A DNA stretch of 52,922 bases from Candidatus Marsarchaeota archaeon (GTDB lineage Archaea > Micrarchaeota > Micrarchaeia > Micrarchaeales > Micrarchaeaceae), in NCBI GenBank assembly GCA_023473665.1, contig JAMCYM010000001.1, positions 1 to 52,922 on the forward strand. Reading direction: 5' to 3'. Of the stretch, positions 1,795 through 48,385 are shown one piece after another. The position numbers and the translations under genes are program-made. Under the pieces are notes generated by a model. It was not told the DNA's origin and ran no database searches. It saw nothing but the letters and a program-made list of their open reading frames with translations. How positions within the stretch are numbered: position 1 is the stretch's first letter; every line of letters starts with the position of its first letter.

Positions 1795-2181
1795 TCACAT
1801 CCTGCGCCTGATGAACCTCAGGGCTGCCCTCGCCCTCTCGGCCACAGCCTTGTAAAAAGACCCTTCCATTTCCTCAACATCCGAGAAGAACAGAGTAGCC
1901 GTGGCTATAGCGATCACTACAAGCTCAAAGAATAGGTAGGTTTCTGCCTCGGCTCCGAATATCAGGTATTGGAACGAGGCATGTCCATATCCCCAGATCC
2001 CTAGATACAGGGCCACAGACTCTCCAACAGACACGAATGGAAGCCCAAGCAGCAGCATTGCCAGGACAATCCTCCTGTAGTCCCTGAGCTCTTCCGCTCC
2101 CCCAAGTACAAGCTCTATCAGTATCGCCCCTCCAGCAAAGACAAATACCGAAACCAGGTAAGTGAAAGCTCCCAATCCCAT
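1795..2181 (-). CDS. crtYd: Lycopene cyclase domain protein, CrtYd-type subunit
   Basis: A 128-residue integral membrane protein, one half of a heterodimeric lycopene beta-cyclase that closes the end rings of lycopene. Hydrophobic segments occupy about residues 5-25, 38-60 and 78-98. The second-half signature is present but weak: GESVALYLGIWGYG followed by GAEAETYLFFELVV, where the acidic pair corresponds to the P-x-E-E motif of the family. It starts four bases after the CrtYc-type gene ends, so the two are translationally linked. Substrate specificity cannot be read from sequence; other prenyl-chain cyclase-fold functions are possible. No phytoene synthase or desaturase lies in the window. 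Confidence 0.75.
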   Translation of the reverse strand: MGLGAFTYLVSVFVFAGGAILIELVLGGAEELRDYRRIVLAMLLLGLPFVSVGESVALYLGIWGYGHASFQYLIFGAEAETYLFFELVVIAIATATLFFSDVEEMEGSFYKAVAERARAALRFIRRRM

Positions 2182-2185
2182 GCAA

Positions 2186-2500
2186 TCACGCCTTTCTGAA
2201 GAATCTGTGCTGCTTCAAGATCAAAATCAGCGTAGATACCAGCAGCGTCACCGATATCATGAACAGATATTCCTCGAGAGGCACCCCGAGCAGGTAAAAT
2301 CCAAGTATGTTGTGCCTTGGGAAGTACCACATACCGCTTCTTATCGCTACCATGTCCCAAGGCACGCTGAACGCCAATGCACTGACCGTACACAATGCCA
2401 AGGTTTTCTTGTACCTAACTACCAGTTTGCGGTGCGAAGCCCACAGTGCGACGAGTGGCGCCCAGGTGAAAACCGCAAGCCAGTATATGTAGTTGAGCAT
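2186..2500 (-). CDS. crtYc: Lycopene cyclase domain protein, CrtYc-type subunit
   Basis: A 104-residue membrane protein carrying the clearest lycopene cyclase domain signature in the window: PWDMVAIRSGMWYFP, then GVPLEEYLFMI, which contains the conserved P-x-E-E-x-x-F block implicated in cyclisation. Three membrane-spanning segments are evident (about residues 3-20, 34-50, 75-95). I chose the ATG at 2500 because GGTGA (2506-2510) lies five bases before it; a GTG at 2509 overlaps that binding site. It sits between the DUF92 gene and the CrtYd-type gene. Together the two short proteins match the c and d halves of heterodimeric cyclases known from actinobacteria and of fused archaeal and fungal enzymes. 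Confidence 0.82.
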   Translation of the reverse strand: MLNYIYWLAVFTWAPLVALWASHRKLVVRYKKTLALCTVSALAFSVPWDMVAIRSGMWYFPRHNILGFYLLGVPLEEYLFMISVTLLVSTLILILKQHRFFRKA

Positions 2501-37490: not shown

Positions 37491-38363
37491 TCAGCTGACT
37501 ACTGCTATCCCAAAACTGCCCAATGCCATATACAGGATGCCGCTGGCCAGAGCTATCACTCCGAGCGCCGTTATCAAGTACACTATCTTGGACTTGCTGG
37601 CTACTTTTATAAGGAAGCTTATCAGGAACAGGCTAACTATTGTGGCTGCCACTATCGCTATGAGAAGCCCATATATGCCAATGAACGCGAGCGCAGCGCT
37701 TACATTCGCATAGCTTTTGATCAAGGTGAGGAGGAACGCTGCCGTAGATGCGAATATGCCAGTCAAGAAAGAAAGTCTGAACGCTTCATCCGCCTCAAAG
37801 TTCATGAGGAACATCGCACTAGTAGTTATGCCAGACCTGCTGACTCCTGGCAGGGCGGCTATGCCCTGTACCACACCAACTATTATGTAATCCTTGAAAG
37901 TCATGTTCGCGAACTTGCGTGTGTTGACTCCCTGCTCGCGCTTCTTCCTTGAGTACCTTATTAACATGGCGTCGCCTATCAGTATTACGCCAATTATAGC
38001 CATAGGCACGCCCACTGATACTCCTGTCACAGAATCAGCAACTATGTATAGCGGCGCGCCTATGATGCCAGTAAATATTATCGTGACAAGCACGTACTTG
38101 AACAGCTTCTTTTCCATCTGCGTGCCTCGAAGTGCTATAACTCTTATAAGCGACCAGACTTCACGCCTGAAGTATATTATGGCGGCGAGCACAGTGCCTA
38201 TCTCCATAAACAGGCCGAAGGTATAAGCCTGCTGGAAGTTGAGGTGCAGCAGCGTCTGCGAGGCTAGCAATACCTGCGTCTTGCTGCTTATGGGCAGCCA
38301 CTCAGATATGCCCTGCACTATGCCTATCAATATAGAGTACAAAGCCTGCAGAATGCCAAGCAT
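37491..38363 (-). CDS. uppP: Undecaprenyl-diphosphatase family protein (UppP/BacA)
   Basis: A 290-residue polytopic membrane phosphatase that regenerates the polyprenyl-phosphate carrier from its diphosphate. Both catalytic blocks are visible: GISEWLPISSKTQ near the N-terminus and ALPGVSRSGITTSAMFL in the middle. In an archaeon the carrier is probably a dolichyl or C55-60 polyprenyl phosphate used for surface glycans, which fits the glycosyltransferases nearby. ATG 38363 is chosen; the frame extends seven codons upstream. It lies 52 bases upstream of the DUF929 gene on the same strand. Confidence 0.93.
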   Translation of the reverse strand: MLGILQALYSILIGIVQGISEWLPISSKTQVLLASQTLLHLNFQQAYTFGLFMEIGTVLAAIIYFRREVWSLIRVIALRGTQMEKKLFKYVLVTIIFTGIIGAPLYIVADSVTGVSVGVPMAIIGVILIGDAMLIRYSRKKREQGVNTRKFANMTFKDYIIVGVVQGIAALPGVSRSGITTSAMFLMNFEADEAFRLSFLTGIFASTAAFLLTLIKSYANVSAALAFIGIYGLLIAIVAATIVSLFLISFLIKVASKSKIVYLITALGVIALASGILYMALGSFGIAVVS

Positions 38364-38453
38364 GCAGGAGTGTTTGAGTGGCAAGGTTAATAAACCTGGC
38401 GCAACCGTTGGTCATGTGCTATGAGTTTTTAGATTTTAATCCAAATTAATATC

Positions 38454-44112: not shown

Positions 44113-45177
44113 TCAAGCGAGGTTCTTTATTGTGAGTTCTCTCTGCTCCGCAAGCTTTGCCAGCGGCCCATTCAGCCTTATCTTGGCCTTCCTAAGCTCG
44201 TCTATGGAGCTGAAGCCCAGCTGCGCCATGCTGTCTCTAAGCCCTTCCGCTATGCTGCTTATGAATCTGTAAACTTCATCTGCTCCTCCTTTGTTCTGGC
44301 TGACTAATGCCGGTTTCGCTATGCCGCACATGTCAGCCCCTAGCGCCACCGACTTGAGCACATCGCTAGCGCTCCTTATTCCTCCGCTGGCCCACACATG
44401 GCCGGAGAAGACAGACTTCACCTCTAGCACCGACAGCGCTGTTGGTATTCCCCAATCCCAGAAAGCCTTCCCGTAAGCGCCTTTGCTTCTGTAGGTCTCA
44501 ACGCCTATCCATGTGGTGCCACCGGCACCCTGCACATCAATGCCGTATATCTTCCCTTCAAACCTCTTCGCGACTTCCTTTGATATGCCATTGCCCACCT
44601 CCTTGAGCAGCGTAGGCTGTCTGACTGATTTAGCGACTTCGCAGATTCTCTCATATGCACCTTTGAAGTCAACGTTGCCCTCAGGCTGTACACTCTCTTG
44701 GCCTGGATTGGTGTGAATGGCGAGCATGTCTGCCTTTACATCATCGAGCATTTCCTGTATCCTGTCATCAGTATATTTTCGTAGTTTCTCGGCACCAATA
44801 TTGCCGATAAGTATCAAGTCGGCGAATTTCTTAACTTCATATGTGAATTTTAAGTTTGGGTCTTCAAGCATCGCCCTCTGGCTGCCGAGCCCCATGGGTA
44901 TGCCTGCCCTGGACGCTCCAATTGCTATGTTCTTGTTTATTTCCAGCGTAGCTGCAGGGCCGCCTGTCATGCCAGAGATGAATAGTGGCGCTGATATTCT
45001 CTTGCCGATAAGCTCCATCGATGTATCTACATCATCAATATTGATGCGCTTTCCTTTCGGAATGACCTCAATATACTCCAGCATGGTTGTCTTGTTACGG
45101 TATTGGGTGTCCTTGTTGAGCACTATGTCTATGTGTTCTACCTTCCTTTTTTGGGTCTCAATTGGCTCGTCAGGCAA
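44113..45177 (-). CDS. fni: Isopentenyl-diphosphate delta-isomerase, type 2 (FMN-dependent)
   Basis: Converts isopentenyl to dimethylallyl diphosphate for archaeal lipids and carotenoids. The 354 residues form an FMN-binding TIM barrel: SAPLFISGMTGGP, IPMGLGSQRAML (FMN contact), IGNIGAEKL, HTNPGQESVQPEG (catalytic loop), KEVGNGISKEVA, GVDVQGAGGTTW-like text and ASGGIRSASDVLKSVALGAD (phosphate site). The start is TTG 45177, four bases after GGTGA, which includes the stop of the upstream gene. The preceding gene encodes a short relative of this enzyme; IPK is divergent just beyond. Confidence 0.95.
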   Translation of the reverse strand: MPDEPIETQKRKVEHIDIVLNKDTQYRNKTTMLEYIEVIPKGKRINIDDVDTSMELIGKRISAPLFISGMTGGPAATLEINKNIAIGASRAGIPMGLGSQRAMLEDPNLKFTYEVKKFADLILIGNIGAEKLRKYTDDRIQEMLDDVKADMLAIHTNPGQESVQPEGNVDFKGAYERICEVAKSVRQPTLLKEVGNGISKEVAKRFEGKIYGIDVQGAGGTTWIGVETYRSKGAYGKAFWDWGIPTALSVLEVKSVFSGHVWASGGIRSASDVLKSVALGADMCGIAKPALVSQNKGGADEVYRFISSIAEGLRDSMAQLGFSSIDELRKAKIRLNGPLAKLAEQRELTIKNLA

Positions 45178-45181
45178 TGGA

Positions 45182-45649
45182 TCACCTCGTTACGTATATG
45201 GGTGCCTTCTTCAGATGCTCTATGTCGTTTGAGTTTGTCAGGAACATTGCAATTCTAAGCTGCTTTATATACAATTGCAGCTCTCCAAGTTGCTCCGCGC
45301 TTATGAACGGGATGCCCCCCATTCTAATGACCTTCGCGGCCTCGATTCCATCCCCTACCTTTTCCTCATGCATCCTGCCAAAATCAACGTCATTGGGCTT
45401 TCCGTCGATGTACAACGCAATCTTGCTGCCGTTACGCGTCATTAACGAAATATCTGGATTGGCTGAGGAAAGTGCAAGCGCCTCCTCTGGCGTTTTGGCT
45501 AGTACCAAAATTGGCACCTTGAGTGTTGTTTCTGGAGAACCAAAACGCATCGTCACATCTATTTCATCTAACGCGAGGTCTGGGAGCGCGTTGTGCACGA
45601 AGCTTATATCGTTTGGACCCAACTTATCCAAAGAAATCAACTCATACAA
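45182..45649 (-). CDS. Short protein resembling the two ends of type 2 IPP isomerase
   Basis: A 155-residue intact frame directly upstream of fni in the same operon. Residues 15-50 (ISFVHNALPDLALDEIDVT, then a KVPILV strand) match the region of type 2 isomerases just before the S-x-M-T-G-G motif; residues 120-155 (YIKQLRIAMFLTNSNDIEHL) parallel the isomerase C-terminus, which in fni reads GLRDSMAQLGFSSIDEL. The FMN-binding barrel core is missing. It starts at TTG 45649 with a TATA-like element just upstream. It may be a regulatory or structural partner of Fni, or a shrunken paralogue with a new role. The assignment rests on by-eye alignment. Confidence 0.65.
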   Translation of the reverse strand: MYELISLDKLGPNDISFVHNALPDLALDEIDVTMRFGSPETTLKVPILVLAKTPEEALALSSANPDISLMTRNGSKIALYIDGKPNDVDFGRMHEEKVGDGIEAAKVIRMGGIPFISAEQLGELQLYIKQLRIAMFLTNSNDIEHLKKAPIYVTR

Positions 45650-45715
45650 TGATTGTGTTTTTAATATAAAAATATACGCTACTATTGCAAAGTGGCCAAT
45701 AGACGAACATGAAGC

Positions 45716-45727: not shown

Positions 45728-45763
45728 GGCCGCGGTTATAAACCTCCTGATTCAGGTGACATT

Positions 45764-46570
45764 CTGAACAAAAAGCTCTATCTGCTGAAAATAGGAGGCA
45801 GCTTGATAGCAGGCCAGAAAAATCAAAGTGAGATACACAAGCGCGAAATAAGAAGAATACTGAAAGAGATTGATGATGCGAGACAAATTGCCGGATTTAA
45901 TATTGTAATAGGGCACGGATCCGGCGCCCCTGGTCATGTGCCTTCTCAGAAATACAATGTTGGTGACGGATTCAAGAGCGAACGTGCTAGATATGGCAGT
46001 ATGTATACAGAGCGCGCATGTAGCAGGCTCGACGATGTTGTGGTGCAGGCTGCTATTGATTTAGGCATGCCTGTTTTTCCGTTCCAACCGCATTCATTTA
46101 GCACAACAATAAATAGCGCTGTATCTGACCTGTACACAAAACCGATAGAGATTGCTTTGAGAAACGGCACTGTCCCAATAATCTACGGCGATGTGCTTAT
46201 GGATTACACGCAGGGATTTTCTGACATATCAACCGAAAAGCTGTTGGCGGCGCTTGCGCGTCGGCTCCATCCGGAAAAAATTATATTCTGCACCGATGTG
46301 GACGGCGTGTTTGACGCCAACCCTAAACTTGAAAAAAGTGCCAAGCTTATACGTAAAGTAAATAGGCATACAATAAACGACGTCATATCAAAAGCAGGGC
46401 CGTCACTAAAAATTGATGTTACCGGCGGGATGAAGACAAAAGTGGCGTTGCTGTATGAAGCGGTGAAAGGCACAAGAACAAGCGGTTATATAATAAATGG
46501 AAAGAAGAAGGGCGCAATTTATAAGTTGCTTGTTGGCATGAAAGTAAGGAATACAATGGTTACATGGTAA
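45764..46570 (+). CDS. ipk: Isopentenyl phosphate kinase
   Basis: Phosphorylates isopentenyl phosphate to IPP in the archaeal mevalonate pathway. The 268 residues show the amino-acid kinase fold: KKLYLLKIGGSLIA, GHGSGAPGH with the substrate histidine, PIIYGDVLMD, FCTDVDGVFDANP and DVTGGMKTKV. The conserved KIGGS strand lies upstream of the first TTG (45803) and no ATG or GTG is in frame there. GGTGA at 45755 points to CTG 45764 as start (next best ATT 45761). It is divergent from the fni operon and overlaps the methyltransferase gene by seven bases. Confidence 0.9.
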   Translation: MNKKLYLLKIGGSLIAGQKNQSEIHKREIRRILKEIDDARQIAGFNIVIGHGSGAPGHVPSQKYNVGDGFKSERARYGSMYTERACSRLDDVVVQAAIDLGMPVFPFQPHSFSTTINSAVSDLYTKPIEIALRNGTVPIIYGDVLMDYTQGFSDISTEKLLAALARRLHPEKIIFCTDVDGVFDANPKLEKSAKLIRKVNRHTINDVISKAGPSLKIDVTGGMKTKVALLYEAVKGTRTSGYIINGKKKGAIYKLLVGMKVRNTMVTW

Positions 46571-47344: not shown

Positions 47345-48385
47345 CTAGAGCGATTTCATAAGCCCCCACTCTATATCTTCCTTGGCATCGTCCGGTATCC
47401 CATTAAGCCATTCATATATGGGATCATCGAGTACCGATTGCTTTGCGATATCTACTGCTTTTTGTCTGATTTGCATGTCAGAGTTGCTTGCCCGTGTTTC
47501 CCTAGTGCTAAGCACATCTATAATGATTACAGGAGCTTCTGCCCTAACGCGTATGTAACCTTTATGTTGTAGATTTTCATTCTCGTACTGTTCTATTAGT
47601 TTTTTAGCCCTATCAAGTGCGGCTGTCAACTGGTCTTTGCTCGGTCTATACTCGTAACCATGAAAGTAGCTCTCAATATTGGCTGCTAGTCCCGAATCCT
47701 TGCTCCGCCTGCGCAGTCGTTCAAGGTCGGCAATGTACTTAGGAACCGTGTAGGTATCATCAAAAACGGAAAAACTTTCCGGTATGTTTGCAGCGTTATT
47801 CATATCGTATAGGGCCAGCACAGCAACCTTTCCAGCATTTGCCATTTTACCTTCCGACGGTCTCTTCCATTCCTCACGCACAAATACGCCGGTATATACG
47901 GAAATGAAACCTGCAGTCTCGCCAAGCCTTTTTTCTATGCGATTAGCGCGCAAATCCGCACTATTGACAAATAACCCCTCATATATTTCCTCTGCCATCG
48001 ACTCTGCATTAGATGCAGTGCAAATATCTCCTGCAGGGTGCAGGTGTATGAATGCTATTGCGTTGCTCCCTTCGCTACCTTTATTTTTTATTGTGCGCAG
48101 CTGTTCCAAAACATCTGTCTCTTCATACTTAATTGCCTCTGGCAACCTCGTAAGCCTCTCCTGCGGAACGTACTTTGTGAATTTCAGCATATCGTTTGAA
48201 TAGACCTTGCCGATCAAAAAGCCTGCAGTTTCATAATGACTATCCATATCGCGCTCAACACTGGCCAGTGCAGATTCAGCAATACGTACCTTTGCCGAGT
48301 CGTTTACCCTGTAAAAAAATTCAGTGTCACCTAAAATCTTTCTGTCGTATTCCGTCTTCTTTACGAGCTTTGATACGCTTTTCAT
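47345..48385 (-). CDS. JAMM/MPN-like metalloprotease-fold protein with unknown C-terminal region
   Basis: A 346-residue protein. Residues about 30-190 look like a JAB/MPN domain: E52 in YETAGFLIGKVY, then H114-L-H116-P-A-G-D at the zinc site, with S125 and E128 following. The H-x-H-P-x-G-D text recalls RadC-type JAMM proteins; the spacing is one residue longer than H-x-H-x7-S-x2-D and the last Asp is Glu. Residues 190-346 are mostly helical and charged (DLERLRRRSKDSG) and I recognise no domain there. No ubiquitin-like, E1-like or proteasome gene is near. It could be a deubiquitinase-like isopeptidase or an inactive scaffold. Confidence 0.65.
   Translation of the reverse strand: MKSVSKLVKKTEYDRKILGDTEFFYRVNDSAKVRIAESALASVERDMDSHYETAGFLIGKVYSNDMLKFTKYVPQERLTRLPEAIKYEETDVLEQLRTIKNKGSEGSNAIAFIHLHPAGDICTASNAESMAEEIYEGLFVNSADLRANRIEKRLGETAGFISVYTGVFVREEWKRPSEGKMANAGKVAVLALYDMNNAANIPESFSVFDDTYTVPKYIADLERLRRRSKDSGLAANIESYFHGYEYRPSKDQLTAALDRAKKLIEQYENENLQHKGYIRVRAEAPVIIIDVLSTRETRASNSDMQIRQKAVDIAKQSVLDDPIYEWLNGIPDDAKEDIEWGLMKSL

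Follow-up and report, generated by a model that had tools for sequence, protein, structure and literature searches.

Type 2 IPP Isomerase and Related Systems

Type 2 IPP isomerase (IDI-2, encoded by fni) makes DMAPP, the second building block required for archaeal membrane lipids, and has been studied as a non-redox flavoenzyme. The classical form of the enzyme is homomeric. In the structures from S. shibatae (2zru/3vkj), B. subtilis (1p0k) and T. thermophilus (1vcf) it is the product of one gene. The same step is catalysed by the type 1 IDI, a Nudix protein (TIGR02150) of unrelated fold. The S. shibatae IDI-2 is described as a homotetramer, and the residues near its substrate include Arg7, Lys8, Arg98 and His155 (PMC3509576).

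Enzymes that involve a second gene are known from other pathways. The trypanosome AdoMetDC prozyme and the HisZ/HisG system are examples of pseudoenzyme subunits. The split genes of nano-sized archaea are another case, where one enzyme is made from two genes in a reduced genome. Further pseudoenzyme subunits are the plant TSB-like protein, which accompanies TSA (PMC12727527), and PDX1.2. In all of these pseudoenzyme systems the active enzyme is accompanied by a non-catalytic homologue whose effect comes, or is believed to come, from binding to it. No description of a heteromeric or split IDI-2 was found in the literature searched, which covered few subscription journals. At the locus described here, in contrast to the classical structures, two paralogous genes always occur together and share out the conserved residues of IDI-2.

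Layout of the Locus

The window is the whole stretch of DNA that was analysed, 52,922 nt from an archaeon of the Micrarchaeota. The features referred to below are as follows.

44113..45177, minus strand: large catalytic subunit candidate, a divergent IDI-2 (fni) with a full TIM barrel (TIGR02151, tree, AlphaFold2, Foldseek, residue table)
45182..45649, minus strand: small subunit candidate, a 155-aa internally deleted IDI-2 paralogue and probable pseudoenzyme (open reading frame, TIGR02151 match, family, AlphaFold2, Foldseek, dN/dS)
45491..45613, minus strand: FVHNALPDLALDEIDV..VPILV, the IDI-2-like N-terminal segment (residues 13-53) of the small protein, matching profile positions 25-63
45191..45355, minus strand: GDGIEAAKVIRMG..QLRIAMFLTNSNDIEHLKKAPIYV, the IDI-2-like C-terminal segment (residues ~99-153) of the small protein
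45178..45184, minus strand: junction, with the small-gene TGA stop (45182-45184), 4 nt and then the large-gene TTG start
45663..45676, minus strand: TATATTTTTATATT, a TATA-like stretch recognised by eye that precedes the small gene
45803..46570, plus strand: isopentenyl phosphate kinase (NF040647), a divergent neighbour that gives pathway context

The small gene begins with TTG, ends with TGA and encodes 155 residues. The large gene also starts with TTG, at 45177, and the stop of the small gene lies 4 nt upstream of this start, which bears out the coupling to fni that the original prediction had proposed. The TATA-like stretch, ~24 nt upstream of the small-gene start, is consistent with a leaderless promoter of a two-gene operon, so that a promoter of its own is plausible. 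The small gene is upstream of the large gene on the same strand in 26/26 readable loci. The large-gene start falls between -38 and +23 nt from the small-gene stop in 22 of the 26; at one further locus no standard start was found for the large gene, which is equally near to that stop. The remaining three loci, all from one genus (g15), have gaps of 119-557 nt, meaning that tight coupling of the pair is not universal. At one g15 locus (L015, genome G016) a 163-codon open frame (2000-2488, plus strand) lies between the two genes on the same strand; the gap is narrower in related genomes.

The adjacent isopentenyl phosphate kinase was considered as a constant component and rejected, as several genomes with the pair show none and there is no general linkage. 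Its true start is probably upstream of the listed TTG (45763-45803, plus strand), as the conserved LLKIGGS motif and a profile match from 45782 precede that codon. No ATG, GTG or TTG is in frame nearby, and the start may be a leaderless ATT or CTG. The same window encodes a BacA/UppP-like undecaprenyl-diphosphate phosphatase homologue (37491-38384, minus strand) and a 346-aa open reading frame (47345-48385, minus strand) that has no Pfam match at E<=0.001.

The Small Protein

The small protein matches the NCBIfam profile for type 2 IPP isomerase, TIGR02151, in two stretches (E=5e-9). Its score of 35.5 bits is below the curated cut-off of 281.3. No family threshold is reached in either Pfam or NCBIfam, and Pfam gave no useful match. 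By profile comparison it is thus a homologue of IDI-2, not a full member of TIGR02151. A phmmer search aligned both of its ends with B. subtilis IDI-2 (PDB 1p0k, E=1.5e-6). When the profile of the small family was compared with that of classical IDI-2, two collinear segments were found, an N-terminal one at the FVHNALPD motif (E=4e-10) and a C-terminal one covering the last 56 columns (E=2.5e-15). As judged from these alignments, the similarity is far beyond chance and restricted to both ends. Between the segments, ~200 residues of the enzyme are reduced to ~45. The FMN and substrate residues R7/K8, T68-G70, H155/Q160/E161 and GGIR are missing. With a score below the cut-off and no catalytic feature, the protein is regarded as a homologue and probable pseudoenzyme, and not as an isomerase.

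A compact alpha/beta fold is predicted for the small protein by AlphaFold2 from the family alignment (mean pLDDT 90.3, pTM 0.84). Matches 1-11 of this model in a Foldseek search of the PDB are all IDI-2, the best being 1p0n (E=1.7e-6, query TM 0.67). The alignments are gapped and extend over ~260-330 columns (289 for the best), which agrees with an aligned start and end and an absent middle. The original prediction had described a truncated, barrel-less relative of IDI-2 that resembles the enzyme at both termini and lacks the FMN-binding core. The truncation, the resemblance of the termini and the loss of the core all stand, and neither a profile comparison nor the reading frames of relatives, which hold intact homologues, contradicted them. 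The term barrel-less is nearly accurate, although some of the first and of the last barrel unit persists in the model.

The Large Protein

The large protein scores 324.5 bits against TIGR02151, above the curated cut-off. A complete barrel is obtained with AlphaFold2 (pLDDT 86.2, pTM 0.89), and Foldseek matches this to S. shibatae IDI-2 (3b03, E=8.6e-33, TM 0.89). By profile and by fold the protein is a member of IDI-2. Almost every residue of the motifs RKxEH, TGG, GSQR, HxNPxQE, KEVGxGIS, GGT and GGIR is invariant across 15 large proteins, and equivalents of the substrate-adjacent residues named for the S. shibatae enzyme (PMC3509576) are kept. What the large proteins (n=27) no longer have is the ALP[DE] loop near the N-terminus and the MFL motif of the C-terminal helix, with P40 retained in 7%, L39 in 0%, F326 in 0% and L327 in 11%. 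The large protein is an IDI-2 that belongs to a new clade. Two substitutions are found in 27/27 large proteins: HTN in place of the classical HLN beside the active-site His155 (S. shibatae position 156), and K at position 114, where classical enzymes have R.

Division of Conserved Residues

The conserved positions of IDI-2 are divided between the two proteins (S. shibatae numbering). Eight positions with 84-100% conservation among classical IDI-2 proteins, L39, P40, I47, G279, A283, L321, F326 and L327, are kept mainly by the small protein. Most large proteins, or all of them, lack six of these (L39, P40, I47, A283, F326 and L327), and G279 and L321 are mostly lost. The positions lost by the large proteins are retained in 62-100% of small proteins. 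The large protein is the main keeper of M67, T68, G69, G70, S273, G274, G275, R277, G289 and A290, among which M67-G70 are FMN-loop residues and S273-R277 form a loop. Identity over the shared segments is 31-37% between small proteins and classical IDI-2 and 21% between small proteins and their large partners. Both the partition of residues and this pattern of identity are as complementary degeneration after duplication predicts. The original prediction had missed this property of the partner: the large protein belongs to an IDI-2 clade of its own, and what that clade has lost is precisely what the small protein keeps.

Distribution and Co-evolution

The small gene was found in 16 genomes among 99 relatives and in 27/301 Micrarchaeota genomes, all 27 from the order of the window and spread over two families. 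The family has 26 full-length members and one that is cut by a contig end. A wider scan of contigs placed the small gene only in records labelled Micrarchaeota, Micrarchaeaceae or, for two MAGs, Marsarchaeota; the weaker matches were the ordinary IDI-2 of methanogens and of one archaeon. The two records titled Marsarchaeota (L101 and L104) carry the pair, and their titles are probably misassigned. Within the order of the window, 60 genomes have a match to IDI-2. The divergent, lower-scoring type seen in the window accounts for 27 of them, and this set coincides exactly with the set that carries the small gene. None of the remaining 33, of which 32 are clearly classical and one has a partial match, carries it.

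The 27 large proteins form a single clade with a long stem (SH-aLRT 100). The small proteins also form a single clade (SH-aLRT 92), with two subclades that match those of the large proteins. These trees are quick searches with SH-aLRT support only, and one classical row (C_L045) was omitted as it had too few filled columns. Patristic distances in the two proteins are correlated (Mantel r=0.88), with 0/2000 permutations as high. The linkage of the pair represents one origin with no later separation, not 27 independent events. In six close pairs of relatives dN/dS (NG86) is 0.11-0.14 for the small gene and 0.04-0.18 for its large partner; the value of ~0.12 indicates that the small gene is under purifying selection. 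The small proteins evolve faster, with a mean identity of 35% against 53% for the large proteins.

The small gene is a conserved family that is obligately linked to the large partner clade. The one-off deletion suggested by the original prediction does not fit a family that 27 genomes share and that is always accompanied by its partner. Its derivation from the neighbouring gene is contradicted by the greater identity to classical IDI-2 than to that neighbour. A recent deletion of the adjacent fni was likewise rejected, as the small clade is nearer to classical IDI-2 than it is to the large clade. An assembly artefact or a frameshifted fni was discarded on the grounds of intact homologues in separate genomes and a full-length partner.

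Other Isomerases and Pathway Requirement

Prenyl synthases need DMAPP. They are present in 8/8 pair genomes checked. No match to the type 1 IDI (TIGR02150) was found in 16/16 pair genomes of the 99-genome set, 8 of which are 90-96% complete, and the pair is therefore probably the sole IPP isomerase of its genomes. Among the same 99 relatives, the type 1 IDI is matched in 49/61 genomes without IDI-2 and in 3/22 classical-IDI-2 genomes, one of these matches being weak. Genomes with the pair, with classical IDI-2 and with the type 1 enzyme all occur in genus g4, a pattern that suggests mutual replacement of the three. Across the order, type 1 IDI and IDI-2 come close to excluding each other, with type 1 found in only 3/38 genomes that have IDI-2.

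Proposed Mechanism and Alternatives

The reading preferred here, given a probability of roughly 0.7, is that the two genes encode a heteromeric IDI-2 composed of a catalytic large subunit and a truncated pseudoenzyme small subunit, both of which are needed. The large protein would supply the whole FMN-binding TIM barrel and perform the flavin chemistry. The small protein would be a paralogue without catalytic function, its central barrel removed by an internal deletion. It would have retained one structural module, made of the N-terminal ALPD loop and the C-terminal QLRIAMFLTNS helix. Following duplication, the two copies may have degenerated in complementary ways, so that the small module gives in trans a surface that homomeric IDI-2 has in cis. 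The surface rebuilt would most likely be an inter-subunit contact of the tetramer or octamer, and the isomerase should require both proteins. We infer a physical complex of the two, along with its stoichiometry and the interface that is rebuilt. A subunit role beside the isomerase, already raised by the original prediction, is the best explanation of the small protein.

The retention of every catalytic motif in the large protein could also mean that it is active alone, with the small protein binding to it as an allosteric regulator that senses pathway intermediates. Activating non-catalytic paralogues are known, such as TSB-like acting on TSA (PMC12727527), and the faster evolution of the small protein would suit a regulator. 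Such a role is unlikely, however, for a gene never lost in 27 genomes, and the loss from the large protein of structural residues so strongly conserved in classical IDI-2 suggests dependence and not optional regulation.

An obligate operon partner without a catalytic site might instead serve as an assembly chaperone or stabiliser, needed only for folding or FMN loading of the large barrel. This is improbable: what the small protein conserves is a defined part of IDI-2 itself, which suggests a structural component of the enzyme and not a transient chaperone. The least credible explanation gives the small protein an independent function as an isoprenoid-phosphate binder in its own right, or sees in it a decaying paralogue that only rides in the operon. 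The isoprenoid locus, with the adjacent kinase, speaks for it; the purifying selection, the exact co-occurrence with the large clade, the loss of substrate and FMN residues and the lack of general linkage to isopentenyl phosphate kinase all speak against it. No evidence was found for the independent isoprenoid-phosphate binding that the original prediction had offered as one possible function.

Comparison with Known Systems and Significance

The small protein has the features of a pseudoenzyme subunit, being homologous to the active subunit, devoid of catalytic residues and under selection with its partner. It shares both termini and fold elements with classical IDI-2. Unlike the prozyme, HisZ, PDX1.2 and TSB-like proteins, it is shortened by more than half, with the cofactor core among the parts lost, and unlike the partners of those proteins, the large protein has visibly lost the complementary part. 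The split genes of nano-sized archaea similarly yield one enzyme from two genes in a reduced genome; the difference is that the large protein here is still full length, and the small protein duplicates both of its ends. The pair is likely to be the first obligately heteromeric IDI-2, in which two copies have split the fold and the catalytic copy depends on the assembly module of the other.

If true, a two-gene IDI-2 would offer a clean example from nature of duplicates that degenerate in complementary ways, with the homomeric form surviving in sister genomes, even within genus g4. It would also affect annotation. The small gene is missed by family cut-offs, and the large gene alone may be wrongly assumed to be sufficient.
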